DNA from: Verrucomicrobium spinosum DSM 4136 = JCM 18804
GTDB lineage: Bacteria > Verrucomicrobiota > Verrucomicrobiia > Verrucomicrobiales > Verrucomicrobiaceae
Reading direction: 5' to 3'
Length of the DNA stretch: 64,000 bases
NCBI RefSeq assembly: GCF_000172155.1
Contig: NZ_ABIZ01000001.1
Span: forward strand, 7,163,105 to 7,227,104
Shown here: piece by piece, positions 5,686-23,046 of the stretch
Layout: every line of letters starts with the position of its first letter
Position numbering within the stretch: the stretch's first letter is position 1
Translations under genes and position numbers: made by a program
Notes under the pieces: model-generated
Told to the model about the DNA's origin: nothing
The model's input: only the letters and a program-made list of their open reading frames with translations
Databases searched by the model: none

Positions 5686-8196
5686 ATGAGTCAAAACCGC
5701 TACGAAGTCCTGGGAAAAATTGCCGATGGCGGCCTGGGAAGTGTCTTCAAAGCGTACGACCGGAATCTGCGGCGGGAAGTGGCGCTAAAACGGGTGCGCG
5801 CGGAGTCGGCTGAAGAGGCCGACCGGCAGGCAGAGCAGCTCTTTGAAGAGGCGAGAACGCTCTCCACCCTACAGCATCCGCACATCGTCACCATCTTCGA
5901 TGTCGGCAAGGATGAAGAAGGTGCCTACATCGTGATGGAATTGCTCAAGGGAGAGACCCTTGAGGACATCATTGAGCGGGGAGCCCTGAACGAAGGGGAC
6001 TTCCGACAGCTCGTGAGTCAGTCGTTGGAAGGGATGATCGCCGCCCATGCCACAGGGCTGATCCACCTCGACATCAAACCGCAGAACTTCATGGTGATCT
6101 GGCTGCCCAGCGGCAAGTTCCAGATCAAGATTCTCGACTTCGGCCTTTCCAAGATCGCGCACCAGCCCATGGTACAGGAGACCGATGCGGAAGGAGCCAT
6201 CTTGGGCAGCATCTTCTTCATGGCACCGGAGCAGTTCGAGCGCTCCCCGGTGGATGTGCGCACGGACCTGTATTCATTGGGATGCGTCTATTATTTCTCC
6301 CTCACGCAGCAGTACCCTTTTCAGGGCGAGACCGCACCGGAGGTGATGGCGAGCCACCTGTACCACAGCTTCATCCCACTGGCTCAGCTGCGCCCTGATC
6401 TGCCAGTGGATCTCTGCCGCTGGGTGGAGTGGCTCATGAGCCGCTCCCCTGAGCGGCGGCCCGCCTCGATGGACAATGCCTTTGAGTGGTTCCAGGCAGG
6501 CCAGGCCCCGTTGACCCCAGAGGAAGAGGATGCCATTGCCCGTCGCCCTCCTCCGCCAGACATCCTCACCGCTCCGCCCGCCGTACCCAACTTCAGCGGC
6601 ACAGCCAGTCAGGCTCTGCGCCGGAGCGCGCCCAGATTCACCCGTCCAGGCAGCGTCACTCAGGCCCTCGGCTCCAAGCCAGTGCCCAAGCCCCTGGCCA
6701 AGCCCGTCAACATTGCCGCCGCGGCGGCCCCCAGGCACCTCCAGCACAGGAAGGCACTGCCGAAGTGGTTCACAGCTGGAGTACCTGCCACCCTCGCCAT
6801 CGGAGCGGTCCTTTACTTCGGCACGCAGTACGCACTCCGGGTAGTGGGAGAGAACCGCTTCGAGGCGCTGGCTCACATGAGCAAACCCACCGGATCGGCC
6901 AAGGACGTAAACCTGCTGCTGGGCTTCCTGGAAGACCCCCGCAACAGCGACGCCGCTGCCGAAGTGCTGAGCAAGTTCGAGGAAAAGGAAATCACCAACA
7001 AGCTCATCCGCCAGCACATCTCCCGCACCAGAGAGCCTTGGGCGAGGAAGAACATCGCCGTGCTGGCCGGCACTCGGGGCATTGCCGATGCGGTCGAGCC
7101 CCTCCTGCGGCACCTGGCTCGCGCCACCGAGCGGGAGGTGCGGATCGCCACCTGGAATGCCCTGGGCCGCGTGGCCACACCAGCGGAAGTTCCCTTCATG
7201 CTGGAGGAAGTCTCTGGCTCAGATGCCGACGAACTCCGGGCGGCTGAAGGCGCGCTGGTGAACGCTGCACGCAAGGAGCCTGAAGCCGAGCGCCGCAGCC
7301 TGCCTGTCCTGCAAAGCTATCGCGCCAACTCGGGTACTGATGATGTCCAGGCGATGCTGCTACGCACGCTTGGCCGCCTCGGCGGTTCCAACGCCCTGGA
7401 TGACATGAGGAAGGCACTGGAGGATGGCAACGCCAAGCTCCGCACTGCCTCTGCACTCGCCCTCGGAGAGTGGCCCAATGCTGAGCCCGTAGCCGCTTTG
7501 GAAGCCTTCATCGCACGTGAGAAAGACTCGCTCGTGCGGACCAATGCGGTGAACAGCCTGGGCATTCTGGCTCCCCTGTCCGGCAACATTCCCCAGGAGG
7601 AAATCGCCGTGGTGCTTGCCAAAGCATTCGACGCCACCCGTGATGGTCGTGAGCAAGGTGCCATCCTGGGGGCCATCGCCCGGGTGGCGGATCCTGCTGC
7701 GGTTAATTTTTTCCGCGATCTTGGCAATCGCGAACCCCGCCGCAAACTAGTGGCAGACAGTGCCATCCGCACGGTCAATCAGGCCCTTGACCGTATGATT
7801 CCGGTGACGGCAGAATCGACCACCCTGGAGTCCGCCAAGGCGGAGCTTCCGCCCGGGCCACTCACCGTGGCAGACGGCGCGATCGTCAACTGGATCAACA
7901 CTGGGGATCAGGTCAACTGGCTCGTGAAAATCGAGCAGCCCGGTGAGTACGAACTGCAAATCAACCAGTTTTTCGACAAGGCCAGCCCGGGACGTTACCG
8001 TGCCACTTTGGGCAAAGAATCCTTCCTGAAGACCGTGGACAAGACCTCCAGCACGGAGTTTAAGACCGTAACTGTAGGGAAGGCCCGTTTTGAGAAGCCC
8101 GGCCTCTACCGCATCTGGATCCGCCCGCAATACATCGCGGATGGGGAATACCTCATGAAGCTCAAAGATGCCACCTTGACCCGGGTGGGAAGCTGA
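5686..8196 (+). CDS. Membrane Ser/Thr protein kinase with HEAT-like repeats and C-terminal beta-sandwich
   Basis: 836 residues. The Hanks-type kinase domain covers about 1-270: glycine-rich loop GKIADGGLGSVFKAY, Lys35, catalytic loop HLDIKPQN (127-134), DFG at 151-153 and APE at 180-182. The usual HRD is HLD, so it is a non-RD kinase. A Pro-rich linker leads to one membrane segment at about 361-385. The extracytoplasmic part contains alpha-helical HEAT-like repeats (roughly 400-690) and a final ~100-residue domain resembling the beta-sandwich binding modules common in Planctomycetes/Verrucomicrobia proteins. The catalytic Asp, Lys and Asn are all present, so activity is plausible. The layout suggests that an external ligand or protein contact controls the internal kinase; the signal is unknown. 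Confidence 0.85.
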   Translation: MSQNRYEVLGKIADGGLGSVFKAYDRNLRREVALKRVRAESAEEADRQAEQLFEEARTLSTLQHPHIVTIFDVGKDEEGAYIVMELLKGETLEDIIERGALNEGDFRQLVSQSLEGMIAAHATGLIHLDIKPQNFMVIWLPSGKFQIKILDFGLSKIAHQPMVQETDAEGAILGSIFFMAPEQFERSPVDVRTDLYSLGCVYYFSLTQQYPFQGETAPEVMASHLYHSFIPLAQLRPDLPVDLCRWVEWLMSRSPERRPASMDNAFEWFQAGQAPLTPEEEDAIARRPPPPDILTAPPAVPNFSGTASQALRRSAPRFTRPGSVTQALGSKPVPKPLAKPVNIAAAAAPRHLQHRKALPKWFTAGVPATLAIGAVLYFGTQYALRVVGENRFEALAHMSKPTGSAKDVNLLLGFLEDPRNSDAAAEVLSKFEEKEITNKLIRQHISRTREPWARKNIAVLAGTRGIADAVEPLLRHLARATEREVRIATWNALGRVATPAEVPFMLEEVSGSDADELRAAEGALVNAARKEPEAERRSLPVLQSYRANSGTDDVQAMLLRTLGRLGGSNALDDMRKALEDGNAKLRTASALALGEWPNAEPVAALEAFIAREKDSLVRTNAVNSLGILAPLSGNIPQEEIAVVLAKAFDATRDGREQGAILGAIARVADPAAVNFFRDLGNREPRRKLVADSAIRTVNQALDRMIPVTAESTTLESAKAELPPGPLTVADGAIVNWINTGDQVNWLVKIEQPGEYELQINQFFDKASPGRYRATLGKESFLKTVDKTSSTEFKTVTVGKARFEKPGLYRIWIRPQYIADGEYLMKLKDATLTRVGS

Positions 8197-8225
8197 TCCG
8201 GGAGTCGGCACCTTCTCCCTCTGCC

Positions 8226-8669
8226 ATGCCAACCTCCTCCCCTCCCTTTCCCGTCTGGCTGGTGGCGTTGATTCCGCTGGCATTCTTCATCATCTTCCCG
8301 CTCTTCTGGTGTTTCGTCGTCTGGCTCATCAGCCAGTTCAGCGGTTGGTCCCGACTGGCCTCCACCTATGCCGCCAAGTCCCCGCCCGAAGGGAAGATGT
8401 GGTCGGGCCAGTTCGGCATGGTGGGTGTGGCCAGCTACAAGGGTGTGTTAACCATCCATGCTGGACCCGCTGGTTTCTACATCGAGACCCCCTGGCTCTT
8501 CCGCACCGGGCACCCGCGGCTGTTCATTCCCTGGGCGGACATCCATGACCTCCAGTTCAGCCGCCTCTTCTGGGGCCGCGAGATGGCAGGCTTCGCCATC
8601 GGTTCCCCCAAGCTCGGCTCCATGCGTCTGCCTGCGGAGATCATTCGCGAAGCGCCGCTGCCGGGATAG
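8226..8669 (+). CDS. Small membrane protein of unknown function
   Basis: 147 residues; one strongly hydrophobic segment at about 10-38 (WLVALIPLAFFIIFPLFWCF) followed by a soluble C-terminal part with no recognised domain. It begins 29 bp after the kinase stop and may share its transcript. Confidence 0.65.
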   Translation: MPTSSPPFPVWLVALIPLAFFIIFPLFWCFVVWLISQFSGWSRLASTYAAKSPPEGKMWSGQFGMVGVASYKGVLTIHAGPAGFYIETPWLFRTGHPRLFIPWADIHDLQFSRLFWGREMAGFAIGSPKLGSMRLPAEIIREAPLPG

Positions 8670-8738
8670 GGTTGAGGAGCGCTCACCAGACTCCACGATT
8701 TCCAGTCGTTGCCATTCAAGATTGGCCAAAGCAATTCC

Positions 8739-8850
8739 ATGCTTCAGACAATGCGCACCAAGTGGCTCCTGGCTGGCCTAGGCTTTGGCTTAACTGCTTC
8801 TTCCCTCCGTCGCATATGCCCCCCTCAGGAACCATTCCCACCCTTGGAAA
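8739..8850 (+). pseudogene. Possible 5' remnant of a secreted-protein gene
   Basis: An ATG at 8739 opens a signal-peptide-like start (basic MRTK then WLLAGLGFGLTASS). After about 8845 the frame continues only as the complement of the adjacent LuxR-type fragment, so the rest of the gene seems lost. The two gene starts point at each other across the junction. This rests on composition alone. Confidence 0.25.
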
Positions 8851-9194
8851 AAACTAACGAAATCGGACAAACGTTGCACCGGCGTGGGCCCATGCTTGAT
8901 CAGATGCTGCACGCCGGGATGATCATGGACGGGCTGCGGCACCACCTCATGGATCTCCGGAAGCGCCTCCGTGTAGCGGTCGTCTATATGTTTCATGGAC
9001 AAATCCAGCGGATTCACCTGATCCACGGATAGACTGCTAATCGGCAACAGTTGCTCAATCGCATCCATGATGCCCCTCAACGGATTCTCCCCCATGGGTT
9101 CCCCATAGATACGGTGCAAAGAGTCTGAAAAGGCCTTAAGGCGGGCTTGCGACAAGTAACCTGAGGCCATGCACAAAAGTACCATCTGATGCAT
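8790..9194 (-). pseudogene. N-terminal fragment of a LuxR-type transcriptional regulator
   Basis: The first ~115 residues match the N-terminal sensor region of a family of single-protein LuxR regulators: a short helix pair, then a beta-rich segment ending in HPGVQHLIKHGPTPVQRLSD. Members are normally 240-270 residues and end in a LuxR helix-turn-helix. Here the similarity stops near 8850 and no HTH follows in any frame, so the gene is truncated. The rest of 8670-9404 holds no other gene; a GC-rich hairpin (GCGCAGC/GCTGCGC) lies at about 9244-9266. Confidence 0.5.
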
Positions 9195-9404
9195 TGAGTT
9201 AGCAACCGGGAAATAGGTAGATTAGTTCATATTGCTTGGTTCGGCGCAGCAGCTCGTAGCTGCGCTCGTGAGAGTGCGGAAGGATCGCGTGGCCCTGTGA
9301 TGTCATCAGCACGCCACCATCTCACAAGCGGCCTGACCACGTTCTTACGAACGCAGCCACGACTGACTTCCTGCCCGCGCAGCCGCAGCTCGCCCCCCAC
9401 TCCA

Positions 9405-10112
9405 TCACTCCATCACTCCATCGACCGCCACCATCCGGTAACCAATCCCCGGCTCATTGCGGATCTGCACGCCTGCCGCGTCTCCCAGCTTCTTGCGCAG
9501 ATGGGCCACATACACGCGCAGGTACTGGGCCTGTTCGGTGGCGTTGGGGCCCCACACGTCTTTCAGGATCTGCTTCTGCGTGATCACTCTGCCCAGATTG
9601 CGGGCCAGCAGCTTGAGCAGGTTGTACTCGATCGGCGTAAGCTTGAGCTCGGCACCGGCCAGCTTCACCTCCCGTGCGGCGAGATCGAGGAATAACTTCC
9701 CCAGTTCCAGCGACGGCTCCTCCGGCGTTTTGCGACGTCTTTGAATGGCCCCCAGACGGGCCGCCAGTTCCGCGGTTGAGAAAGGCTTCGTGACATAATC
9801 GTCCGCGCCGTTCTCCAGCGCCGCCACCTTGATGGCCTCCTGATCACGAACAGACAGAACAAGCACCGGGGTCTCAGTCCATTCGCGGAGCCGCTTGAGC
9901 ACCTCCAGTCCATCCATGTCCGGCAGCCCGAGATCGAGCAGGATGACATCGGGGTGACGGAACGCCGCCTCAGAGAGGCCGAGAGAGCCGGTCCCGGCCT
10001 CAAAGACTTCATAGCCTTTGCTCTCCAGCGCCAGACGCAGCAAGCGCCGCAGTTGCACCTCGTCATCCACCACGAGGGCACGACTTTGACCAGGTATCGG
10101 GGAAGCACTCAT
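9405..10112 (-). CDS. kdpE: KdpE-type response regulator (OmpR family)
   Basis: 235 residues: a receiver domain with the acidic pair after VVDDE, phospho-acceptor Asp in VILLDLGLPDMDG and the conserved Lys in VTKPF, followed by an OmpR/PhoB winged helix (YNLLKLLARNLGRVITQKQILKDVWG). Its start overlaps the kdpD stop by 4 bp, and it is the last gene of the kdp operon. Phosphorylated by KdpD, it should activate kdpFABC transcription when potassium is limiting. The 3' end lies in a small direct repeat (ACTCCATC three times). Confidence 0.93.
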   Translation of the reverse strand: MSASPIPGQSRALVVDDEVQLRRLLRLALESKGYEVFEAGTGSLGLSEAAFRHPDVILLDLGLPDMDGLEVLKRLREWTETPVLVLSVRDQEAIKVAALENGADDYVTKPFSTAELAARLGAIQRRRKTPEEPSLELGKLFLDLAAREVKLAGAELKLTPIEYNLLKLLARNLGRVITQKQILKDVWGPNATEQAQYLRVYVAHLRKKLGDAAGVQIRNEPGIGYRMVAVDGVME

Positions 10113-12760
10113 GGCAGTGAGGGGGTGGTCAGCGTCTCTACAGGCAGTGTGATGACAAACTCTGCCCCTCCGTCGGGCCGGTTCGAGGCTTTTACGTCTC
10201 CATCCAGCGAGCGCAGCAAGGCGCGCGAGATGGAAAGCCCCAGTCCCGTGCCTCCGGTGGGGCTGCCGGGTCCGCGGTAAAACTTCTGAAACACCTGCTC
10301 CTCCCCGTTCTGCGGCAGACCAGGGCCACGATCCGCGATGCGAACCGCAAGGATGCCGCCATGCTGCAGCGCTGCATGAATCTCCACGGGGCTCCCGTCC
10401 GGCGTGTACACTGCCGCATTGTGAAGAATGTTCGCGAGGGCCTGGGCGAAGAGATTGGGGTCGAGTTTCACAGCAGGCAGGTCTGCAGGAATGTCCATCG
10501 CAAGTGGATGCTTGTCGAGCACCTCCCCCACGGAGTGGCGGGCCTGCTCAATCAGATCTCCCAGCAGGCACCACTCCCGCACGGGCTGGACCGCCGCGGA
10601 CTCGATGCGAGTCATCTGCAACAGATGATTCACGACCCGCTGCAACCGCGCCGAGGCAGTGTGAATCTCCTCCACGTACGGGTTCTTCACATCTGACAGC
10701 CCCTCCAGTGCCGCATGAATGACGGCAAGGGGCGTCTTCAATTCGTGAGACACGCTGTCCAGCAAGGTGCGCTGCAGACGCTCGGACTGCTCCATCAACT
10801 CGGCATGCCGCACGGCGAAAATGAAGTGCTCCTTCTCCAGGACCAAGGCCAGTTGCAGTGCAAAAGCCTCAATGGACTGGCGGGTCGTGAAATCCATCAG
10901 GGCCTTTTCCGACAAACGCACTCCAAAGACCCCCATCTGGGAAGTCGCCGTCTGCAAGGGGAACCAGGCGGCCTCAGACTCGGGCAGCGTGTCCGTGAAG
11001 CGACCGGCAGGCTGCTTGTTTTGATAGCTCCAATTGATCACCCCCCACTCTTTGGCGCTTGGCTTGAGGGTGCTGGCCTCATGGACCGCGTGCGGCAGTG
11101 ATCGGTCCATATTTCGCACCACCACGGCTGTGTCGGCACGCAGGAATTCATTGATAGCGCGCAGCGCCTCCTCAAGACCACGATCTGGCTCTGCCGTAAG
11201 GGCGGCGCTCTGGGTGACTCGCAAGAGGGCGGCAGTCTGCCGCTGCCTCCGGCGTTCTGCCTGCTCGCGCTGCCGCAGTCGCGTGGTCAGGTGGCCCATG
11301 CTGAAGGCCACAATGAAGAACATCACGAACATGACGATGTCATGCGGCTGGTTGATGTGGAGCGTGAAACGGGGCGGAATGAAGAAATAGTCCCAGGTGA
11401 AAGCACTCAGCGCGGCCATGGTCAGCACCGGCCCCCTGCCGAGGCGGACGGCGGCAACGATCACCGCCAGCAGGAAGACAAGACCTGCAAAAACATAACC
11501 TGTATAAGGAAGGAGCAGCCAGCCAAGCAGCGCCACGGCGAACGTGAGCCCCAGCGCCCAGACATACTCGGCAACCAGACCGGCAGGAAGCTCAACGGGC
11601 TGTAGTTTGTCCGACCTGGCTGAACCACCAGCCAGTTCCGGCCGCACCATGCAGACGTCGATGTCACCACTTTCCTGAACCAGCCGGTCAGACAATGATC
11701 GGTGCCTCCAGGCTCTGTTGCCTGGTTTTCCGACCACGATCTGGCTCACATTGCGGTCTCGGGCGATCTGCAACAGGGAAGCTGCCACATCCTCCCCCGT
11801 GACACTCACCACCTCCGCCCCCAGTTTGCGGGCTAGCGCCAGTGATCGGGACAGACGCTCTTCATCAGCCGGCACCAGTCTTTTGGAGCCCTCCACCCAC
11901 GCCACGATCCATGGGCAGGAAAGCCGGTTGGCCGCCCGGCGCGTCCAGCGGATGAGGCTCTCCGAGTACGGGCTGGGCCCCACTCCCACCAGCAACCGGG
12001 CATTCGTCTTCCAGGCCGTGCTCACCCGCTTCGCCCGGCGGATGTCCTCCAGGTCGCGATCCACGTGCTCGGCGGTGAAACGCAGCGCCATTTCCCGCAG
12101 GGCCGTGAGGTTGCCTTCCTTGAAGAAGTTCGACACCGCCCACTCCGCACGGTCTCCAAGATACACCTTGCCTGCCGCCATGCGGTCGAGCAGTTTTTCC
12201 ACGCTCAAATCCACCAGCTCGATCTCGTGTGCATGATCAAGGATCGAGTCCGGCACGGTCTCTTGAATGGTGATGCCCGTGATCTGACGGACGATGTCCA
12301 CCTGGCTTTCGATGTGCTGGACATTCACCGTGGTGTAAACATCCAGCCCCGCTCCAATGAGCTCTATCACGTCCTGATACCGCTTGAAGTGGCGGGAACC
12401 AGGGGCATTGGTGTGCGCCAGTTCGTCCACCAAAACGAGTTCGGGGCGCTGCTGGAGCACTGCATCCAGGTCAAACTCCTCCAGGATGTGCCCGCGATGC
12501 TCGAGCTTCCTGCGGGGCAGAACCTCCAGATCCTTGAGCAGCGCGGCTGTCTCCGACCTCCCGTGGGTTTCCACGACCCCCACCATCACCTTCACCCCTT
12601 CTTTCTGGCGCTGGCGTGCTGCCTGCAGCATCGCGTACGTCTTGCCCACGCCCGGGCACATGCCCAGGAAAATGAAGAGGCGTCCCAGACGGGACTCCTT
12701 TTCGGCACGCTGCAGCTCTGCCAAAAGGGCATCAGGATCTGGCCGGTGGGGTTCAGTCAT
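10109..12760 (-). CDS. kdpD: KdpD-type sensor histidine kinase
   Basis: 883 residues with the full KdpD plan: N-terminal KdpD domain with Walker A GMCPGVGKT (33-41) and the VDELAHTN motif, a universal-stress-protein domain (about 250-375), a four-helix membrane domain (about 398-490), a GAF-like region, the dimerisation domain with phospho-His672 in SVSHELKTPL, and an ATPase domain with N box, DRGPGLP and GTGLGLS. It senses potassium or turgor and phosphorylates KdpE. It is separated from kdpC by two extra genes, which is unusual. Confidence 0.95.
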   Translation of the reverse strand: MTEPHRPDPDALLAELQRAEKESRLGRLFIFLGMCPGVGKTYAMLQAARQRQKEGVKVMVGVVETHGRSETAALLKDLEVLPRRKLEHRGHILEEFDLDAVLQQRPELVLVDELAHTNAPGSRHFKRYQDVIELIGAGLDVYTTVNVQHIESQVDIVRQITGITIQETVPDSILDHAHEIELVDLSVEKLLDRMAAGKVYLGDRAEWAVSNFFKEGNLTALREMALRFTAEHVDRDLEDIRRAKRVSTAWKTNARLLVGVGPSPYSESLIRWTRRAANRLSCPWIVAWVEGSKRLVPADEERLSRSLALARKLGAEVVSVTGEDVAASLLQIARDRNVSQIVVGKPGNRAWRHRSLSDRLVQESGDIDVCMVRPELAGGSARSDKLQPVELPAGLVAEYVWALGLTFAVALLGWLLLPYTGYVFAGLVFLLAVIVAAVRLGRGPVLTMAALSAFTWDYFFIPPRFTLHINQPHDIVMFVMFFIVAFSMGHLTTRLRQREQAERRRQRQTAALLRVTQSAALTAEPDRGLEEALRAINEFLRADTAVVVRNMDRSLPHAVHEASTLKPSAKEWGVINWSYQNKQPAGRFTDTLPESEAAWFPLQTATSQMGVFGVRLSEKALMDFTTRQSIEAFALQLALVLEKEHFIFAVRHAELMEQSERLQRTLLDSVSHELKTPLAVIHAALEGLSDVKNPYVEEIHTASARLQRVVNHLLQMTRIESAAVQPVREWCLLGDLIEQARHSVGEVLDKHPLAMDIPADLPAVKLDPNLFAQALANILHNAAVYTPDGSPVEIHAALQHGGILAVRIADRGPGLPQNGEEQVFQKFYRGPGSPTGGTGLGLSISRALLRSLDGDVKASNRPDGGAEFVITLPVETLTTPSLP

Positions 12761-12775
12761 CAGAATGCGGGCGGA

Positions 12776-14218
12776 TCAGTTGGTTGACGTCAGACCGGGC
12801 TTGAGGCGCTTGTTTTTAACACGGGTCTGCGGAAAGGGCTGCTTGTCTTTTTGATAATAGCAGATTTCCACGAGAGTCGGCCAGAGCTCAAGCGAGGCGT
12901 GGATCTGGCTGATGACATCATCCACAATACGACTCACGTTCTGCTGGAAGAAGTCCGGCTCAAAACCATAGAACACCTTTGCGAGATTCTCTGCGAAGAG
13001 GTTGAGGGTGTGCTTGCGCTCGGGGTCCGCGGCTGATTCCGCAGAAGTCAGCACCCGGGAATAGACCGCCATGACCTTGCTCAAAATCTCCTGCGTGTCC
13101 TCCAGGGTCACCTCCCCGTTGTAGCGGAACTTGATGCCCAGGTCGTCGCGGTGGTACACGCTGTCCTTGATCTTCTTCTTCAGCAGGCTGCAGAGCTCTT
13201 CGTTGAAGACCTCCATGGCCAGCGGATTGCGCATGTAGTTGTTCTTCGTGTGGCGCTGCACCGCATCCACATGGGCAGCCGCCACTCCGGGCTGCTGGAT
13301 CCAGAGACGGTAGATGTAGTCCTCGAACCTGAGGCGGGTGGGGAAAAAGGGAGGCAGCCCCAGCCGGTTGTCATAGCCGGAGACACCGCAGTCGATGCGC
13401 CAGTTCTTCTTGGTCACCACCGGCCGGAAGTTCACCAGGACGTACACGTCGTTCAGGGCATTGATGTCCGACTGTTCTTCGTCGGCAAGAAACATCTCCA
13501 CATAGTCGAGCGCATCAATGTCGTTTGTCCCCGTGCGGTAGGTCTGGGCAATCTTCACCACCGACTCCCTCGGCAGGCGGCCGGGTTGGAGCATCAGGGA
13601 GTTTTCGCGGGAGAAAGTGCTGGTAGTGTTGGTCTCCAGATCCATCGAGGTATCCACCAGCATCTCCCCCCGTTCGTAGTTCGCCGGCATCTGTCCCGCC
13701 TTCTTGCCCAGAGCATCCTTAAACGCGGCCAGCAGGTCAAAGGACTTGCTGACGTAGCCGTTCTCCGAGGTCCGGCAGAGCTTGCCGCGGCAGACTTCGT
13801 TGGCCGCCAGGCTCTCCATACTGTCCTCGATGAGCGCGTCAGGCCGCATGTCGTCATCGGAGCTGATCAGATAGTGACCAAGCGTGTACATCAGCGTGAA
13901 ATTCCGGTTCCCGCCATAGCTGGGCCGGAAGAGATTCCGCACCAGTGATTCAAGCTTTTTGTCACGCAGCTTGCGGTTCAGGAAACCAATGAACTCCTCC
14001 TTCTCCCTCGGCCCCACGTAGAAGAGCTCGTTGGCGGTGCGGGTCTGCTCCAGCAGACTGTAGTATTTCTGGTGGGCAGCCAGACTGGAGTCGTCGAAGA
14101 CTAACATCCGTGCGGCATGGCCGTTGCGCCAGAAATTGTCGTCGTAGGCTTCGATGGTGGCGGCCACATCCCGTAATCGATAGGTAGGAATGGCAAAATG
14201 CGTCTGGGCAGAGTTCAT
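12776..14218 (-). CDS. Putative GT-A-fold glycosyltransferase inside the kdp operon
   Basis: 480 residues. The N-terminus resembles family-2-like glycosyltransferases: an IPTYRLRDVAATIEA start for the nucleotide-sugar fold and, at about residue 137, a DDD metal-binding motif (ISSDDDMRPDAL). The rest is helical and shows no membrane segment. It sits between the kdpC-like gene and kdpD in the same orientation, with 15 bp to kdpD, so it is probably co-regulated with potassium transport. The donor and acceptor are unknown. The call rests on the fold-like start and the DxD motif, not on overall similarity. Confidence 0.5.
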   Translation of the reverse strand: MNSAQTHFAIPTYRLRDVAATIEAYDDNFWRNGHAARMLVFDDSSLAAHQKYYSLLEQTRTANELFYVGPREKEEFIGFLNRKLRDKKLESLVRNLFRPSYGGNRNFTLMYTLGHYLISSDDDMRPDALIEDSMESLAANEVCRGKLCRTSENGYVSKSFDLLAAFKDALGKKAGQMPANYERGEMLVDTSMDLETNTTSTFSRENSLMLQPGRLPRESVVKIAQTYRTGTNDIDALDYVEMFLADEEQSDINALNDVYVLVNFRPVVTKKNWRIDCGVSGYDNRLGLPPFFPTRLRFEDYIYRLWIQQPGVAAAHVDAVQRHTKNNYMRNPLAMEVFNEELCSLLKKKIKDSVYHRDDLGIKFRYNGEVTLEDTQEILSKVMAVYSRVLTSAESAADPERKHTLNLFAENLAKVFYGFEPDFFQQNVSRIVDDVISQIHASLELWPTLVEICYYQKDKQPFPQTRVKNKRLKPGLTSTN

Positions 14219-14287
14219 GTCAGTAGGCGATTCAACTTGGATGACGTGTCAGTGAGCATTGCAGTGCAATGGGATGTGCCCATGATG

Positions 14288-14358
14288 GGGCAATCCCGGG
14301 GCACCTCACGATCTGCGTGGGATGCCCCGGGATTGTCCCGACCGCCCTCGGCAGGGCG
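14288..14358 (-). promoter_or_regulatory. Two strong hairpins in the kdpC-like/glycosyltransferase gap
   Basis: The 160-bp gap (14219-14378) contains a long stem (CAATCCCGGGGCA at 14291-14303 paired with 14323-14335, extended on both sides to about 14288-14339) and, beside it, CCGCCCT/AGGGCGG at 14341-14358. There is no U-tract, so processing, RNA stabilisation or an intergenic repeat is more likely than termination. It could separate expression of the transporter from kdpDE. Confidence 0.55.
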
Positions 14359-14378
14359 GCGGGGCGGACGGCCTTCCC

Positions 14379-14804
14379 TTACGGCAGCTCGTCCAGCGCC
14401 AGATTGAGACGCCAGACATTTAACCGGTCAGTGCCAATGGCACGCGAGGGTGGTGGCTCTGTGAGCTTGTCGATGAGTGCCTCCACTCTTTTGATGCCCT
14501 CAGCATCCAGGCCGCGCTCTTTGGCAATCCCTTCGACCTGCTGGCGTGCCTGGAAGGAGCTCAGATAGGGGTGGGGCGTTTCCACAGTGGACTCACCAAG
14601 CTTGAAGTAACGTGGCCCGGTCAGCTTCCCGGCCAGGAGCTGTTCCGCCACGACTTTCTCATCGGGAATGGAGAGTTTTTGCCCCTCGCGGTGGCTTCGC
14701 AAAAAGTGGGCGACGCCCGAGAAAAAGAGAAACAGCACCACCAGCACAACGGCATAGAGGCCGAGGATGCGAATCGGAAAATGGTCATTGACCTGGGACT
14801 TCAT
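14379..14804 (-). CDS. Diverged KdpC-like protein
   Basis: 141 residues: one N-terminal membrane helix (GLYAVVLVVLFLFFSGVAHF) and a C-terminal part that tracks KdpC. Both share an LTG/FTG segment, a helical region before the end, and nearly the same final motif (NVWRLNLALDEL here, NVLRLNLALEKL in the neighbouring KdpC). About 60 residues typical of KdpC, including the substrate-loop region, are missing. It lies 80 bp downstream of true kdpC in the same operon, so it looks like an old tandem duplicate that was shortened and may have become an accessory subunit. Confidence 0.6.
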   Translation of the reverse strand: MKSQVNDHFPIRILGLYAVVLVVLFLFFSGVAHFLRSHREGQKLSIPDEKVVAEQLLAGKLTGPRYFKLGESTVETPHPYLSSFQARQQVEGIAKERGLDAEGIKRVEALIDKLTEPPPSRAIGTDRLNVWRLNLALDELP

Positions 14805-14884
14805 GGCAGGACAGGGCTGTGGAGCAACCAGGCGGGCCCGGCCTGAACCGGACCCGCACTGACATCCATTTCGCTCGACGTGTG

Positions 14885-15493
14885 TTATTTCATCGTAGAA
14901 GACAGTTTCTCCAGAGCCAGGTTCAAGCGGAGCACATTGACCCCCGCATCTCCCAGCACGCCCAGACCAGGCCCCTCAATGCAGGTCTGAACAAGGCTGC
15001 GCACCTGGTCTTCAGACAGTTTTCTCGCCCGGGCCACCCTGGCAGTCTGCAGTTCGGCATTGCGCAGGCTGATGTGAGGATCCAGTCCGCTGCCAGAAGC
15101 TGTCACCGCATCGGCAGGCACCGGTTCATCCGCCTTGAGCCCATTGCTTTCACGATAGGAGGCTATGCGATCCTTCACGGCATCCGCCAGCTTTTGTGAG
15201 GTGGGGCCGAGGTTGGACCCGCCGGAGCTGGCCGCATCATAGCCATTGGCACCGGCGGCTGAAGGACGCGGTTGAAACCAGGCCTCCCCGGTAAAGTTCT
15301 GCCCCAGCAGAGAAGAACCCCGGAGGGTGCCGTCGGCATCTCTGATCAGGCTGCCATTGGCCTTGTCCCGAAAGACGCCTTGGGCAACTGCCCAGACCAC
15401 CACGGGATAGATGCCACAAAGCACCACCACAAAGACCAGGGTGGAGACCACCGCCCCACGCACATCAAGCAAGAACGATTTCATATGTTTCAA
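14885..15493 (-). CDS. kdpC: Potassium-transporting ATPase subunit KdpC
   Basis: 202 residues: one N-terminal membrane helix (VSTLVFVVVLCGIYPVVVWAV), the conserved SLLGQNF and WFQPRPSAA segments, a DPHIS motif and the C-terminal NVLRLNLALEKL. KdpC stabilises the KdpFABC complex and nucleotide binding by KdpB. It directly abuts kdpB (no gap), consistent with coupled translation. Confidence 0.95.
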   Translation of the reverse strand: MKHMKSFLLDVRGAVVSTLVFVVVLCGIYPVVVWAVAQGVFRDKANGSLIRDADGTLRGSSLLGQNFTGEAWFQPRPSAAGANGYDAASSGGSNLGPTSQKLADAVKDRIASYRESNGLKADEPVPADAVTASGSGLDPHISLRNAELQTARVARARKLSEDQVRSLVQTCIEGPGLGVLGDAGVNVLRLNLALEKLSSTMK

Positions 15494-17530
15494 TCAAGCG
15501 AGGTTAAGAGTCGTGATGATGACGTCGATGGCCTTGATGCCTGCGAAGGGCAGGATGAGGCCACCGAGCCCGTAGATGCAAAGGTTGCGCTGGAGCACCG
15601 CCACCGCACCGACCGGGCGGTATTGCACCCCGCGCAAGGCGAGCGGGATGAGGGCAATGATGATGAGCGCATTGAAGATGATGGCGCTCAGGATCGCGCT
15701 TTGCGGCGAGGCCAGGCCCATGATGTTGAGCGGGGCAATGGCCGGGAACGTGACCATGAGCATGGCAGGGATGATGGCGAAGTACTTCGCCACATCGTTG
15801 GCAATGCTGAAGGTGGTCAGCGAGCCCCGGGTCATGAGGAGTTGTTTCCCAATCTCCACAATCTCGATGAGCTTCGTGGGGTTGCTGTCCAGATCCACCA
15901 TGTTGCCGGCTTCACGCGCGGCCTGGGTGCCGGTGTTCATGGCCACGCCCACATCCGCCTGGGCCAGGGCCGGGGCATCATTGGTGCCGTCCCCGGTCAT
16001 GGCCACCAGATGGCCCTGCGCCTGCTCGGAGCGAATGCGCTTGAGCTTGTCCTCCGGTGTGGCCTGGGCCATGAAGTCATCCACGCCCGCTTCCGCGGCA
16101 ATGGCGGCGGCGGTCATCGGATTGTCCCCGGTGATCATCACAGTGCGGATGCCCATCTTGCGCAGCTGGGCAAAGCGCTCCTTGATCCCCCCTTTCACCA
16201 CGTCCTTGAGCTCCACCACGCCCAACACCTTCTGACCATCCACCACCACAAGGGGCGTGCGACCCGCGCGAGCGGCGGCTTCCACGCTCTTCTCCACCTC
16301 GGCGGGATAGAGACCGCCCTTCTCCTCCACATAGCGCCGGACGGACTCTGCCGCGCCTTTGCGCACGCTCCGCCCGTCAATATCCACCCCGCTCATGCGC
16401 GTCTGCGCCGTGAAGGGGATGAAGGTGGCATGGGGCTCCGCCACCTCCCGACCACGGATGTTGAACTTCTCCTTGGCGAGCACCACGATGCTGCGGCCTT
16501 CTGGAGTTTCGTCAGCCAGCGAGGCCAGTTGCGCAGCGTCCGCCAGCTCCTGTTCAGTGACCCCGGCCGCGGGACGAAAGTCCGAAGCCATGCGGTTGCC
16601 GATGGTGATGGTGCCCGTCTTGTCGAGCAGGAGCACGTCAATATCCCCCGCAGCCTCCACCGCACGACCACTGGTGGCCATGACATTGCGACGGATCAGG
16701 CGGTCGATGCCACTGATGCCGATGGCGCTCAGCAGTCCACCGATGGTGGTGGGGATGAGGCACACCAGAAGGGCGATGAGCACCGGGATGGTGAAGTTCG
16801 TGCCAGCATAGATGCCGAAGGGTTTCAACGTCACCACCACCAGCAGGAAGATCAACGTGAGGGCCGAGAGCAGGATCGTCAGGGCTATCTCATTGGGCGT
16901 CTTCTGGCGCTTGGCACCTTCCACCATCGAGATCATGCGATCCAGGAAGGTGTTGCCCTTTTCCGATGTGATCCGGATGATGATGCGGTCACTGATGACC
17001 CGTGTGCCGCCGGTGACAGCGCTGCGATCACCGCCGCTTTCACGAATGACCGGGGCAGACTCGCCAGTGATCGCGGCCTCATCCACGCTGGCAATGCCTT
17101 CAATCACCTCGCCATCAGCGGGGATGACATCGCCAGCGTCGCACACCACGACGTCACCCTTTTGCAACTCGGGAGCAGGCACCCGCTCCTCCTTGCCGCT
17201 GCGCACGCGGCGGGCGACCGTATCCTTGCGGGCTTTCCGCAGAGAATCAGCCTGGGCCTTGCCGCGGCCTTCGGCCATGGCCTCCGCGAAGTTGGCAAAC
17301 AGGACAGTGAACCAGAGCCAGATGGCCAGCTGGACGATAAAGAAGCGGTCCACCGGGGCCGTGAAGATGCTCACAGTGGTCAACACCGCACCAACCAGCG
17401 TCACGAACATGACGGGGTTTCTGATCATCAGGCGCGGATCGAGTTTCTTGAACGACTCTCCAATCGCCGGACCGGCGATCTTCCAGTCAAAGAGGGAGGG
17501 AACTTGGTGGGACATGGTAGCAGGAAACAA
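15494..17530 (-). CDS. kdpB: Potassium-transporting P-type ATPase subunit KdpB
   Basis: 678 residues. P-type ATPase landmarks: TGES in the actuator domain (about 155-158), the phosphorylation motif DKTGTIT (Asp at about 303), TGDN and [14 protein letters not shown] in the P domain, and membrane helices before and after. KdpB energises potassium import through KdpA. A second ATG five codons in (MSHQVPS) is an equally reasonable start. It lies 5 bp after kdpA. Confidence 0.97.
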
Positions 17531-17535
17531 ATGGT

Positions 17536-19347
17536 TTAGAAGAGCTGGCCCTTGAGCATCAGGAAGTGCTCGACAATCGGCCCCAGGGCGAGGGCGGGAA
17601 GGAAGTTGAGAGCGCCGACGAGCAGCACCGTGCCGATCAGCAAGATGGTGAAGGTCACTCCCGCCACCGGGAAGGTACCCACACTGGGCGGTGCTATTTT
17701 CTTCTGCACCAGCGAGCCCGCGAGCGCCATGATCGGGATGATCATGAGAAACCGGCCAATGAGCATCGCCAAGCCCAGCGTCACGTTGTAGTGAGGATCC
17801 CCGTTGGCAGGATTTGCCGTGAGGCCGGCAAAAGCGCTGCCGTTGTTGCCCGTGGCGGAGCTGTAGGCATAGAGCATCTCACTGAACCCGTGCGGGCCGG
17901 CGTTGTTCAGCCCGGCCAGCCCCCAGTCACTGACGGCTGCCCAGGCGGTGAAGCCAAGAATGGAAAGGCACAGGACCAGCAGGGAGAGCATGGCCATCTT
18001 CACATCGTAGGCCTGGATTTTCTTTCCGAGGTACTCAGGCGTGCGACCCACCATCAGTCCAGCGATGAACACCGCGAGCACCACAAAGACGAGCATGCCG
18101 TAGAGCCCGGCCCCCACCCCGCCAATGACCACCTCACCCAGCTCCATCATGAACAACGGCACCAGTCCGCCGATGGCGGTGAAGGAGTCGTGCATCGAGT
18201 TGACGGCCCCACAAGAGGCCGCCGTGGTGATGGTGGCGAAGAGGGAGGAGTTGAAGATGCCAAAGCGGACCTCCTTGCCCTCCATGTTGCCATCGCCCAG
18301 CGCGACGCCGAGCCCCTGGTGGATGGGATTGCCCTGAGCCTCTGCCCACCAGCAGGTGATCACCCCCGCCAGAAAAAGAACCATCATCGCCCCCCAGACC
18401 GACCAGCCGTGTGCCTGGTTGTTGGTCATGCGACCGAGATAGTAAGTCAGCCCGCTGCCGATCGCGAAGATAGAGAGCATCTGTAGAAAGTTGGAGAGCG
18501 GAGTGGGGTTCTCATAGGGGTGCGCCGCATTGGCGTTCACAAAGCCGCCGCCGTTGGTGCCCAGCATCTTGATCGCCACCTGGGAGGCCATGGGCCCCTG
18601 CACAATGGTTTGCGTCGTGATCACCTGCTCCTCCATGACGGGCTTGCCGTCTGCACCCAGGATGGACTCACCCGCCTCGTTCTTCTTCTCCACCAGTACC
18701 TTCTGCGGCTCCAGGAGCGTGGCCGTGTCATACGGTTTGAAGTTCTGGATCATGCCCTGGGAGACCAGGAACACCGCAAACACCAGGCTCAAAGGGAGCA
18801 GGAGATAGTAGGTGCATCGAACCAGATCGACCCAGAAATTCCCCAACACACCTGCGGAATGACGTGTGATGCCGCGGACCAGGGCAGCCGCGATGGCGAT
18901 CCCCGTGGCGGCCGAAGTGAAGTTGTGCAGCGTGAGCCCCACCATCTGGGAGAAGTAGGACATTGTCCCCTCGCCACCGTAGCTCTGCCAGTTCGTGTTG
19001 GTGGTGAAGCTGATGGCCGTATTGAATGCCAGATGATGGTTCAAGGGACCGAGGCCCTGGGGATTGAAGGGCAACAGGTGTTGCAGACGCAGGATTGCGT
19101 AGGTGAGCGCACAACCTGCCAGGCTGAAGAGCAGCATGGCCACAGTGTATTGCTTCCAGTTTTGCTCCCGGGTGCGGTCCACGCCCATGACAGCGTAGGT
19201 CAACCGCTCCAGCGGACCCACCACGGGGTCCAGCAGCGTTTTGCCGTTGGCATCCAGCACCTTCGTGAGGTAGATGCCCAGCGGCTTGGTAATGAGGGCC
19301 AGCAGCCCGACAAAGAGGGCAAGCTGAAGCCAGTCTGATGTATGCAT
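17536..19347 (-). CDS. kdpA: Potassium-transporting ATPase subunit KdpA
   Basis: 603 residues, highly hydrophobic with about ten membrane segments and KdpA selectivity-filter regions ([45 protein letters not shown]-like SCGAVNS). It is the potassium-binding channel-like subunit. A ~60-residue stretch at about 225-265 ([17 protein letters not shown]) is charged and looks like a periplasmic loop longer than in E. coli KdpA. Confidence 0.97.
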
Positions 19348-19381
19348 GAAAAGGTTCAGGTGAATGGGTTTCAGGAAAGTG

Positions 19382-19465
19382 CTAGAACTTTTCCGGCCGG
19401 ATCATGGCCGTGAAAAGGTAGATGAAGAGGAGCAGCGCGACGCCGCCCACGAGGATGGTTTCCAT
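19382..19465 (-). CDS. kdpF: KdpF small membrane subunit
   Basis: 27 residues, one membrane helix flanked by METI and the C-terminal MIRPEKF typical of KdpF. It lies 34 bp upstream of kdpA in the same direction. KdpF is a lipid-like stabiliser of the KdpFABC complex. Confidence 0.85.
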   Translation of the reverse strand: METILVGGVALLLFIYLFTAMIRPEKF

Positions 19466-19488
19466 GGCAATGCAGGATGAGTCAGGGG

Positions 19489-19572
19489 TTAGAGCTTCTC
19501 GCAGAAGCGGATGTAGAATCCGCTCGCGAGGAAAAAGCCGGTGAAGGCCGCGATGTAGAGGAGGTCAGTCAT
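19489..19572 (-). CDS. 27-residue membrane peptide, first gene of the kdp operon
   Basis: MTDLLYIA followed by a hydrophobic helix and the ending FYIRFCEKL. Peptides of this size and pattern are often found just upstream of kdpF, so position supports it as real. It starts about 80 nt after the putative KdpE operator. A longer in-frame extension to 19731 exists but has no signs of being translated. Confidence 0.6.
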   Translation of the reverse strand: MTDLLYIAAFTGFFLASGFYIRFCEKL

Positions 19573-19651
19573 GGGTGGTTCCGGGGTGAAAGTTTCATTG
19601 GAACCACGATCCTCCACCCGCCCCGGCCCTCGAATTAAAAGGGGGCCAGGA

Positions 19652-19673
19652 GGTGTTAAAAAAGTGTTAAAAC
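19652..19673 (-). promoter_or_regulatory. Putative KdpE operator upstream of the kdp operon
   Basis: On the minus strand this reads as two TTAACAC copies separated by a T-run, spaced 11 bp apart (one helical turn), the arrangement expected for a dimeric OmpR-family regulator. It resembles the T-rich KdpE site known from E. coli. It lies about 80 bp upstream of the first kdp gene, the right place for an activator site plus promoter. Confidence 0.55.
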
Positions 19674-19750
19674 GGGGGTGGGTGGACATGGCACACTCCG
19701 GCCTTCGACGCCGGCAGCCCCCAGGGGTCAATCAGTCTGGGCACTTCCAT

Positions 19751-19789
19751 CACCTGGCGACGAAGTCGCTGTGGAGCGCCGCTTTGGCT
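19751..19789 (+). repeat. REP-like repeat, family A, short copy
   Basis: CACCTGGCGACGAAGTCGCT and the following bases match the copies flanking the transposase at 31-32 kb, but the GTGCGGCGTGAAGC middle part is missing. It lies in the 420-bp gap between the kdp promoter and the PIG-L gene (19674-20097), which otherwise holds only GC-rich intergenic sequence and no gene. Confidence 0.75.
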
Positions 19790-20097
19790 ACGCCTTGTGA
19801 GATTTGCCTCCCTGCACCCACCAGCGAAGCCCCATCTCCTCCTTTCACGCCACATCGCCATCAGCCCGACACAGGACTCCCTAAAGGCGGCGATTCTCGC
19901 CGCACTCCCAAAGATGCTTCGCATCCAGGTGGCGGACATCTGGAGGAGCTTTCACACAAGACCAGCCTGAGAAGCCAGAGGCGTTTTTTATCACCCCTCA
20001 TCTCACCCCAGGCGCTCGCGCCGCCTAAACCAGCGGAGCGCCTCAACAGCCCGCTTGCGGGCCCCTCAACCAGCGCGCAGCGCGCCTAAACCTCTTC

Positions 20098-20946
20098 TCA
20101 AGCAAACTTCCGCATGCGCGCCCTTACGTCATCCTTCAAACGATCCACAAACCCCAGGGCAAAGTCCTCAGGGTTCAAGGTATCATCCTGAATGAGCGGG
20201 GTCAGGTCCATCGCAAACGTCAGCGAGTTTGTCGCGTCCGTCGTGTGGGAGTCAAAGTAGGTCGCATTCGCGCGGCGCAGCCCTTCCTCGGCCAGGTCAT
20301 AGCGTTTGCCGCCGCTGATCTGGGAGTCAAACACCGCCAGCAGCGCACCAATCAAATGCGGATACTGGTCCACCCAGAGCATCACCTTGTCCTCGCTGAG
20401 AAGCCAGTCGAGCTTGCGCCAGACTTCACAACCGTACACGCGCTGCGGGCGCGCCTCTTTGGGCAGGGAGCGCAGGGCCTCCAGGCAACGCAGGAAGGTG
20501 GCCACATGCGTGTCGTGACGGTCAGCGGGGTTATGGAGATAAACAAACTGGGGCTGGGTGAGCTTGAGGATGCGCAGCAAGTCATCGGACACATCTTCCC
20601 GGCGACCGGACTTTACATCCTCACTGGGATAGCCAAGCTGGACCATCACACTGTATTCTCCCACGAAGGCGGCCTTACGCTGCTCGTGCTTCCGCACTTC
20701 CAGCATCTCCTCATCCGTGTAGTGGGCATACGGCCCTTTGCGTGGACTGCCGGAGCCGTTCGTCACCACCACGCCACCGAACCACTTCTCCTCCCGCCTG
20801 AAGCACTCGGTGATGCCGTGATAGGCCGCAATTTCCAGGTCATCCTGGTGGCTGACGATGCCAAGGTGGGTCACCCGGGCAAAGGCCTGGGCGGGGTCGG
20901 TCTGGTCGGGGACAAACAAGTCGGCTTTAGAGTGGCGAAAGAGCAT
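20098..20946 (-). CDS. PIG-L/LmbE-family deacetylase
   Basis: 282 residues from the ATG at 20946. The zinc site typical of N-acetylglucosaminyl deacetylases is recognisable: SHQDDLE where most members have AHPDDE, and HNPADRHDTHVA for the downstream His. The likely reaction is metal-dependent removal of an acetyl group from an N-acetyl sugar or related small molecule. The frame is open 147 bp further upstream, but that extension reads like non-coding DNA. Its 3' end faces the kdp promoter region. Confidence 0.75.
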   Translation of the reverse strand: MLFRHSKADLFVPDQTDPAQAFARVTHLGIVSHQDDLEIAAYHGITECFRREEKWFGGVVVTNGSGSPRKGPYAHYTDEEMLEVRKHEQRKAAFVGEYSVMVQLGYPSEDVKSGRREDVSDDLLRILKLTQPQFVYLHNPADRHDTHVATFLRCLEALRSLPKEARPQRVYGCEVWRKLDWLLSEDKVMLWVDQYPHLIGALLAVFDSQISGGKRYDLAEEGLRRANATYFDSHTTDATNSLTFAMDLTPLIQDDTLNPEDFALGFVDRLKDDVRARMRKFA

Positions 20947-21239
20947 GGCAGGTGGTTCACGATGAGCGGAAACCGCCTTGGAGCAAGGCGATTGGTGGCA
21001 TTCCGCAGAAGGAATGTCCGCAACCGGCCCGTTGGGAGCAAAAATCTCCAACAATCGAGCCAGGCGGACCAAGGTTCCCGGAGCGGCTGGCACGCTTTAG
21101 GCATGCAACGGTTATGTCACGCGATTCTCCATGAAAATGGAGGGATCGTGGTTTTTATGCTTGCCGTTGCCACTCAAAGTCGTGTTTACTTTGACGAACT
21201 TAATTAATTCGGATGCACGCTTCATCCGCACGACCCCAA

Positions 21240-21283
21240 CCGCCCGAGGACGCCTGCGCGTTTCTTACGGGCGGTTTTCTTTT
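21240..21283 (+). terminator. Terminator-like hairpin upstream of the PhoH gene
   Basis: CCGCCCG (21240-21246) pairs with CGGGCGG (21268-21274), followed by TTTTCTTTT. No gene precedes it on this strand: the nearest features are a T-rich promoter-like stretch at about 21185-21210. It may end a small RNA or act as a leader attenuator for the PhoH gene 70 bp downstream. Confidence 0.55.
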
Positions 21284-21353
21284 CCCCCCATGGTCAGGCT
21301 GACCGCACCGGTCCGCCGCCCCTGAACCTCAACCACCCCAAACAACGCCCTAT

Positions 21354-22943
21354 ATGCTCCACGAAGCCGCTCCTTCCCCCGAACTGATGCTGAGTCTCGA
21401 AGAGGAAATCACCAACGGGAGGGAACACGGCAACGGGGGCGGCGTCCAGTACGCGGGAGGCGGAACAGGGACGCGAAGGAAACGAGGAGTCAACGGGCGC
21501 AACGGCTCCGCCCAGAGCACCCGGGTGAAGTCCTTTGTGCTGGACACCAACGTGCTGCTGCATGATCCGGCCTGCCTGCAAAGGTTCGAGGACAATGAAG
21601 TGTGCATCCCCGTGGATGTGCTGGGTGAGCTGGACCGGTTCAAGAATGAACCGAGCGATCGAGGAGCCAACGCCCGCGAGGTGCACCGCGCGCTCTCCCG
21701 CGCCTTTTCACAGCCCGGCGCGGATGTCATGCAGGGCGTGAACACCGCCGGTGGCGGCCGGGTGCGCCTGGTGGTCTTTGATCTCAAGGAGGCGCTTCAA
21801 TCCAAGCCGGTGCAGCGCTTCGAGCGTGTGTTTCATGACATGGAAAAGCCGGATCACCGCATCCTCGCATGCGCCCTCTGGCTCGGTCACCTCTCCGATC
21901 ATCCGGTGATCCTCGTGAGCAAGGACCTGAACATGCAGCTGAAGGCACGCGCGGTGGGCATGCCGTGCGAGGACTATCTGCATGACAAGGTGGAGGCGCG
22001 GGAAGTCTCCCAAACCGAGCTCGTCACCGTGCAGGTCACCTCCCACGAATTGCAGCGCTTCGCCAGCAGCAGCATCCTGGAGCTGGAGCCACGCCGCTAC
22101 CCTGCCCTGGCCGTCAATGAATACGTCCTGCTCTCCGCCGGGGAGAAGAACACCATGCCCGCCCGCTTCAGTGCCACGGGTTCATTCATCAAATTGCATG
22201 TGCCGGAATCGCTTAAGATCCTGCAGGGCCGCACCATCAAGCCCATGAACCTGGGTCAGGCCTGCCTGCTGGATGCGCTCATGAATCCGGAGATCTCCCT
22301 CGTCACGTGCTTCGGACAAGCAGGCACGGGCAAAACACTGCTGGCCTGCGCCGCAGGCCTCTCCCAGGTGATGGGCAACACCTACTCCGGCATCACCGTG
22401 AGCCGGCCCATCGTGGCCATGGGTCAGGGCATCGGCTTCCTGCCTGGCTCCCTGCATGAGAAAATGCGCCCCTGGCTCCAGCCAGTGTACGACGCGCTGG
22501 ACCTGCTGACCCGCCCGGCCGCCAATCCCAGCTTCAGCAAGAAGAAGACTTCCCGCCACGGCAACCCCAACCCACCCACGCAGGGCATGACGCCCGGCAG
22601 CGCCGCCGCCCCCTACGATCCGCTGGTGCAGTCCGGTGTGATCGAAATCGAGGCGCTCTGCTACATCCGCGGTCGCAGCATCCCAGACCGCTTCTTCATC
22701 CTGGATGAAGCGCAGCAGCTCACTCCGCTGGAAGCCAAGACGGTGGTCACACGCATGTCCCGCGGCAGCAAGCTGGTGCTCATCGGCGATCCCGCCCAGA
22801 TCGACAATCCCTATGTGGACAGCCGCAGCAACGGCCTGGTGTACACCCGCCAGCGCATGCGTGGCCAGTCCTTTGCCGCCCACGTCCCGTTGGGCAAAGG
22901 CGAGCGCAGCCCGCTTGCCGAAGCCGGGGCCCGCCTGCTCTAG
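21354..22943 (+). CDS. PIN-PhoH ATPase (PhoH2-type)
   Basis: 529 residues. An N-terminal PIN nuclease domain (FVLDTNVLLHDP at about 59, further acidic residues downstream) is joined to a C-terminal PhoH helicase/ATPase domain with Walker A GQAGTGKT, Walker B FFILDEAQQ and a GDPAQIDNP motif. Two-domain proteins of this type (PhoH2) couple RNA unwinding to RNase activity. The first ~55 residues are Gly-rich and unlike the family. A terminator follows 28 bp after the stop. Confidence 0.9.
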   Translation: MLHEAAPSPELMLSLEEEITNGREHGNGGGVQYAGGGTGTRRKRGVNGRNGSAQSTRVKSFVLDTNVLLHDPACLQRFEDNEVCIPVDVLGELDRFKNEPSDRGANAREVHRALSRAFSQPGADVMQGVNTAGGGRVRLVVFDLKEALQSKPVQRFERVFHDMEKPDHRILACALWLGHLSDHPVILVSKDLNMQLKARAVGMPCEDYLHDKVEAREVSQTELVTVQVTSHELQRFASSSILELEPRRYPALAVNEYVLLSAGEKNTMPARFSATGSFIKLHVPESLKILQGRTIKPMNLGQACLLDALMNPEISLVTCFGQAGTGKTLLACAAGLSQVMGNTYSGITVSRPIVAMGQGIGFLPGSLHEKMRPWLQPVYDALDLLTRPAANPSFSKKKTSRHGNPNPPTQGMTPGSAAAPYDPLVQSGVIEIEALCYIRGRSIPDRFFILDEAQQLTPLEAKTVVTRMSRGSKLVLIGDPAQIDNPYVDSRSNGLVYTRQRMRGQSFAAHVPLGKGERSPLAEAGARLL

Positions 22944-22970
22944 TCCCTTCACTCCCGCTCTCAGACTCTG

Positions 22971-23010: not shown

Positions 23011-23046
23011 GGAACCGCAGGTCACGCAAATTCCTCGAACCCCAGA

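Follow-up and report, generated by a model that had tools for sequence, protein, structure and literature searches.

The pump subunit KdpC has a single helix and faces the periplasm, according to the available part of PMC6255902. What it does there is less clear; in the portions available of two papers on the structure of the pump its function is called unknown (PMC9651954) or elusive (PMC9651954, PMC8385062). The available sections of other papers suggest that KdpC influences K+ affinity in the manner of a beta subunit (PMC6255902, PMC8385062), or that it has a stabilising role (PMC12629597). The beta subunits of the Na+/K+- and H+/K+-ATPases are auxiliary subunits of P-type ATPases that are proposed to affect K+ affinity, and so offer a parallel to the protein described here, although the comparison made in the available text of PMC6255902 and PMC8385062 concerns KdpC itself, and the likeness is one of working only. 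KdpF provides a second parallel, being likewise a small membrane protein added to the Kdp pump, but it differs in being a single helix of 27 residues that has its own ORF upstream of kdpA in Verrucomicrobium spinosum. An extra kdp gene, kdpG, occurs in cyanobacteria.

Here we analyse a shortened paralog of KdpC, which we label C2, encoded in the kdp operon of V. spinosum. C2 has in common with KdpC (PF02669, TIGR00681; 5mrw, 6hra, 7bgy) an N-terminal hydrophobic helix, a block of the LxxxxTGxxYF type, a C-terminal A..Q..R...R pattern with LNxALD, and a gene that lies beside kdpB and kdpC. It differs from KdpC in that the centre of the protein is absent, in that it falls under the cut-off of every NCBIfam KdpC model, and in being additional to KdpC; moreover one copy has a lipobox-like N-terminus, and in two genomes there is a copy that adjoins kup. 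An earlier note on this DNA stated that an added KdpC-type subunit was not known to have been studied, and this agrees with our searches of open-licence PubMed Central papers (largely by title and the start of the abstract), in which no paper on a second or short KdpC was found. C2 is a real and selected paralog of KdpC from which the centre has been deleted, and it is apparently undescribed so far. We put at about an even chance the proposal that it is an extra, membrane-anchored periplasmic subunit of Kdp that would bind the outer face of the pump and tune it beside KdpC.

The C2 gene and its operon

The window (the whole stretch of 64,000 nucleotides that was analysed) contains a kdp operon on its minus strand in the order kdpF-like ORF, kdpA, kdpB, kdpC, C2, a gene for a protein of 480 aa, kdpD and kdpE (Table 1). 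The earlier note had claimed that this operon has a further, shorter gene of the KdpC type, and this is what we find: C2 scores 49.5 bits against the Pfam KdpC family and lies directly after the normal kdpC. The product of the latter scores 232 bits against the same family and exceeds the cut-off of TIGR00681. The short ORF at the head of the operon is presumably KdpF. Just 5' of it there is a second single-helix ORF of 27 codons (MTDLLY...CEKL; window 19489-19572, minus strand).

Table 1. Features of the kdp operon in the window, with the parts of the C2 protein
Feature	Coordinates	Strand	Description
kdpF-like ORF	19382..19465	(-)	27 aa, single helix, ends RPEKF; read from sequence
kdpA	17536..19347	(-)	603 aa; Pfam KdpA 756 bits
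kdpB	15494..17530	(-)	678 aa as listed; E1-E2_ATPase and Hydrolase domains
kdpC, canonical	14885..15493	(-)	202 aa with the listed TTG start; 199 aa with the internal ATG at 15484
C2, short KdpC paralog	14379..14804	(-)	141 aa, ATG start (14804->14379)
C2 parts, in order			N-terminal hydrophobic helix (residues ~13-31), PDEK stretch, LLxxKLTGPRYF block, C-terminal KdpC block with end LNVWRLNLALDELP; from hydropathy, Pfam and family profile
480-aa gene between C2 and kdpD	12776..14218	(-)	no Pfam family over cut-off, no NCBIfam family
kdpD sensor kinase	10109..12760	(-)	883 aa; Pfam KdpD 307 bits
kdpE response regulator	9405..10112	(-)	235 aa; Response_reg and Trans_reg_C

The spacing between the stop of kdpC and the start of C2 is 80 nt, and a simple scan of the minus strand found no terminator-like site between the two genes. 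From the gene order and spacing we assume that the kdp genes, including C2, form a single transcript. No Rfam family scored over its gathering score in six kup or kdp loci or in window positions 8000-24000.

Each of the 21 C2 copies collected below has exactly one hydrophobic stretch near the N-terminus, with nothing as strong downstream. In one of them (G211) the stretch is short and ends in LASC at residue 14, which is lipobox-like as judged by a regular expression, so that the anchor of C2 looks replaceable. The topology of KdpC given in the available part of PMC6255902 would place C2 on the periplasmic side.

Relationship to KdpC

C2 matches PF02669 with an E value of 5.6e-13, well over the cut-off of 24.1 bits, and the best-matching stretch corresponds to positions 125-182 of the 182 in the profile. 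The earlier note had named an HMM comparison as the point on which its claim of kinship should be judged, and that comparison finds the relationship. Six of seven other C2 copies also score above the Pfam cut-off, while the G211 copy falls below it with 20.4 bits. Ten NCBIfam KdpC models match C2 (best E 2.9e-10), every one of them under its cut-off; for the equivalogs the scores are 28.9 bits for TIGR00681 (cut-off 152.55) and 40.1 bits for NF001454 (cut-off 178). A match to the whole KdpC domain fails, and the central RPSAAG...GSNLGPTS and VTASGSG segments are absent.

Comparison with individual KdpC sequences locates what has been retained. In a single BLASTP comparison C2 is 34% identical to the adjoining KdpC over 62 C-terminal residues (E 1e-6). 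Using phmmer, C2 alone matches the solved E. coli KdpC with E 0.044, and a profile of the 21-sequence C2 family matches it with E 8.5e-12. The match comprises two colinear blocks, profile positions 14-71 corresponding to residues 20-77 of E. coli KdpC and positions 72-133 corresponding to residues 130-188; the first block is weak when taken alone (10.7 bits). Between the two retained blocks there are 63 residues in the V. spinosum KdpC and 52 in that of E. coli, so that the loss of about 60 residues claimed in the earlier note is borne out as a single central stretch. In terms of sequence, then, C2 is KdpC without its centre of some 50-60 residues. The C-terminal NxxRLNLALxxL motif is present as the earlier note had described it (NVWRLNLALDEL). 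Within the C-terminal block one Q, one R and the LN are kept in all 21 copies, and the LD of the KdpC sequence LDPHIS is retained in none of the 21. The V. spinosum genome (one contig of 8,220,857 bases) contains just two matches to KdpC, these being C2 and kdpC.

An AlphaFold model of C2 was built from three sequences, leaving out an alignment that mixed C2 with KdpC since its consensus looked misaligned. The model is of low confidence (mean pLDDT 61.6). KdpC chains take the top seven places in a Foldseek search with it, with probability 0.96-1.0, E 0.02-0.08 and TM-scores of 0.28-0.42, and for a model of this low confidence there is no match at E <= 0.001. We judge C2 to be homologous to KdpC by sequence, with a weak indication of the same from the fold.

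The nature of the missing segment bears upon what C2 might do. Conservation reaches 90% or more at 65 positions across 62 KdpC sequences, and 27 of these positions fall inside the stretch that is absent from C2. This makes it unlikely that a family without the conserved centre serves as a plain substitute for KdpC. It also seems to us improbable that C2, as an alternative KdpC, exchanges with the full-length subunit and so gives a second form of the pump with a different affinity. The two proteins do belong to the same family, with a similar N-terminal anchor and C-terminal block, and in four genomes the genes overlap. Yet the 27 lost positions include those of the RPSAAG...GSNLGPTS and VTASGSG segments, the anchor of the G211 copy resembles a lipoprotein signal rather than the KdpC helix, and every one of the 20 genomes with C2 has KdpC, which is never replaced. 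The loss of so many highly conserved positions points instead to a C2 that would act beside KdpC.

Distribution and gene neighbourhood

When C2 alone was used as query against 38 genomes including its own, full-length matches were found in its own genome, in two of the same genus and in two of another genus in the family; two further matches covered the C-terminal part only. A five-sequence C2 profile applied to 387 genomes of the phylum adds three genomes, which share a genus and represent a second family within the order, and a nine-sequence profile gives a match in 55 of 386 genomes of the order. Matches in the order search with E <= 6.2e-18 and a start at profile position 51 or earlier were called C2, which gives 21 matches in 20 genomes. 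The remaining ones begin no earlier than profile position 66, have E 3e-9 or weaker, and were read as KdpC.

A Pfam search found KdpC in 74 of the 386 genomes of the order (the two sets of 386 were taken as identical, and the listed handles agree). C2 is present in 20 of these 74 and in none of the 312 genomes without KdpC; the KdpC of all 20 was also confirmed by tblastn or in the window. The pair of genes, which the earlier note had suggested seeking in other Verrucomicrobia, is found in 20 of the 386 genomes of the order, that of V. spinosum included. Full-length C2 was not found outside the order in the 387 genomes of the phylum using the five-sequence profile, nor in 365 genomes of the class using a 21-row profile. 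Beyond the order the profiles gave partial matches, almost always to the C-terminal part within longer frames, and from their coordinates we read these as ordinary KdpC. Among the genomes sampled within the phylum, C2 is restricted to one order. The nearest C2 genes are those of Verrucomicrobium sp. BvORR034 and BvORR106, and a scan of contigs with narrow patterns found these two only.

Some candidates were rejected as C2. Matches came from 18 plasmid records, and the two that were inspected are full-length KdpC. A short KdpC in G257 is a C-terminal half of canonical KdpC (116 aa) that contains GLDPHIS. This half-length gene (L044:7077-7427) lies before kdpDE with no match to kdpA or kdpB in the 14 kb around it, and the kdpB, kdpA and a kdpC of that genome sit on another contig.

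Judged by gene order and strand, 19 of the 20 genomes have C2 downstream of kdpC and ahead of kdpD in the same orientation, in G584 at an interval of 2.4 kb. The start of C2 overlaps the stop of kdpC by 4 nt in G335, G211, G505 and G508 (where a GTG start was chosen). The 480-aa gene stands between C2 and kdpD in five of the 19 genomes with C2 in the operon (G000, G001, G003, G500 and G549), and in G335 a toxin-antitoxin-like pair, read from the sequence, is found there. KdpC occurs without C2 in 54 genomes, and the gap between kdpC and kdpD was examined in 40 of these and could be measured in 39. It is at most 226 nt in 32 genomes and 744-902 nt in the other seven, the long gaps containing repeats, a toxin-antitoxin-like pair or a transposase-like gene as judged by eye. 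Hence the absence of C2 is clean in most of the C2-less genomes examined, and the presence of other elements in such genomes indicates that the slot between kdpC and kdpD tolerates insertion.

The constant position suggests a further reading, that C2 provides a periplasmic input to the sensor kinase KdpD. C2 does precede kdpD in 19 of the 20 genomes, either immediately or separated from it by the 480-aa gene or the toxin-antitoxin-like pair. But C2 derives from KdpC and belongs to no sensor family, the same slot also accepts other genes, and there is no kdpD within the 14-17 kb around two copies that are linked to kup. We regard this role as very improbable.

We note that the 480-aa gene is 76-99% identical in G001, G003, G500 and G549, better conserved than C2 and KdpC are in those genomes, and that the order is always C2, 480-aa gene, kdpD. 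No PHROG match was found for the protein. Its IPTYR and SDDDM stretches look by eye like those of a GT-A glycosyltransferase; the pLDDT of its predicted fold is 35.3. Other kdp loci have extra genes as well. Downstream of kdpDE in four loci of genus g8 (L092, L099, L100 and L102) there is another KdpD-like kinase, which is shortened, and another KdpE-like regulator; in L092, L099, L100 and L101 kup lies directly 5' of kdpA.

Two copies of C2 lie outside the kdp operon. The sole C2 of G495 precedes a kup gene of the same orientation by 264 nt, and is on a different contig from a kdp operon that is ordinary and has no C2. The related genome G335 has two copies: its kdp operon contains one, and the other precedes kup by 371 nt. 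The kup of G335 scores 590 bits against Pfam K_trans, and that of G495 is 91% identical to it. Across 18 genomes of the genus to which these two belong, C2 is found in the flank of two of the 13 kup loci. Again no kdpD is present within 14-17 kb around either of the kup-linked copies.

These copies are a hint of a wider role for C2 in potassium uptake, so that its function may extend beyond KdpFABC. The sole copy of G495 in particular is not predicted if C2 is purely bound to Kdp. An alternative is that C2 is a general periplasmic accessory of K+ uptake, acting in local K+ capture or gating, that works with either KdpFABC or Kup; the kup-adjoining copies and the differences in membrane anchor among C2 copies favour this. 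On the other side, C2 is found at so few of the kup loci of that genus, the distances to kup make co-transcription only putative, and no genome of the order without KdpC has C2. We consider this alternative possible but unlikely.

Selection, descent and proposed role

C2 is kept by purifying selection. By the Nei-Gojobori method dN/dS relative to BvORR034 is 0.12 for both C2 and KdpC, and relative to BvORR106 it is 0.10 for C2 and 0.17 for KdpC, with silent sites near saturation. None of the 21 copies contains an in-frame stop. In a tree of the C-terminal block the 21 C2 sequences split from 61 KdpC sequences with branch support of 100/96; this tree rests on 62 columns, so that its inner branching is unsure, and the KdpC row of G431 was left out. 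The pairwise distances between 18 genomes are correlated for C2 and KdpB (r 0.86, Mantel p 0.0005), with 0.75 for C2 and KdpC and 0.83 for KdpC and KdpB. G460, for which the contig has partial kdpB only, was left out of both the distance test and the KdpB tree; G495 is in the tree, and its kup-linked C2 was left out of the test.

Mapping the presence of C2 on a tree of KdpB from 58 genomes requires 8-9 changes, at least five of them forced by well-supported branches. It follows that many Kdp pumps work without C2. The counts fit gain or loss alike; taken with the clade and distance results we read them as one old gain followed by repeated loss. A duplication and a deletion probably gave rise to C2 from a full-length KdpC. 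Four genomes of one genus (G448, G500, G443 and G460) have a C2 from which both the PDEK stretch and the motif PSR are missing, so that constraint has been relaxed in that genus.

That motif loss, and the patchy presence of the gene, might be taken to mean that C2 is a decaying duplicate of kdpC or a non-functional remnant. However, its dN/dS is as low as that of KdpC, none of the 21 copies has an internal stop, and the C2 sequences make up a single clade of wide depth, with the position in the operon in agreement. We rejected decay on the basis of dN/dS and clade depth, and consider it most unlikely.

A loop of KdpA was also examined. In V. spinosum residues 198-250 (window 18598-18756, minus strand), directly before the GTNGGG segment, form an extended loop, and the stretch before GTNGGG is at least 35 residues long in 17 of 19 C2 genomes compared with four of 29 C2-less genomes (Fisher 2e-7). 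Note that the threshold of 35 was picked post hoc with the lengths known, and that the first threshold, of 55, separated nothing. The count excludes G729, where the contig ends at kdpC, and G460, which has no kdpA on the contig stretch. The long loops form one clade (one change at a threshold of 26) and five independent pairs give no significance. The loop was therefore set aside as evidence for a link with C2, since it may reflect shared ancestry.

The C-terminal block that is kept, the centre that is lost, the invariable presence of KdpC alongside and the position in the operon lead us back to an extra modulating subunit on the outer side of the pump. On this proposal C2, an old KdpC paralog lacking the central periplasmic part, would be anchored at its N-terminus and exposed to the periplasm. 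It would be expressed together with the pump from the operon, right after kdpC, and its retained C-terminal block may bind the outer face of KdpFABC at KdpA, KdpC or both. Full-length KdpC would keep its normal place while C2 acts, and C2 would tune the pump in its capture of K+, its stability or its shut-off. That C2 might change the affinity or stability of the pump, as the earlier note suggested, is plausible as a putative role. The 80-nt gap in V. spinosum, unlike the 4-nt overlap of the four relatives, counts against an accessory subunit.

Whatever its exact role, C2 keeps the C-terminal block of KdpC and drops the conserved centre. It is thus a natural separation of two parts of KdpC, in effect a ready-made domain experiment, and may help to reveal the role of a poorly understood subunit. 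If the kup-adjoining copies are functional, a KdpC-type domain could be tested outside a P-type pump. They raise the further idea, to which we give a low probability, that this KdpC-derived, anchored periplasmic module is a portable accessory of K+ uptake, serving Kdp in most carriers and the unrelated Kup in some. Were this true, KdpC-type domains would be potassium-handling modules and not fixed parts of one pump.
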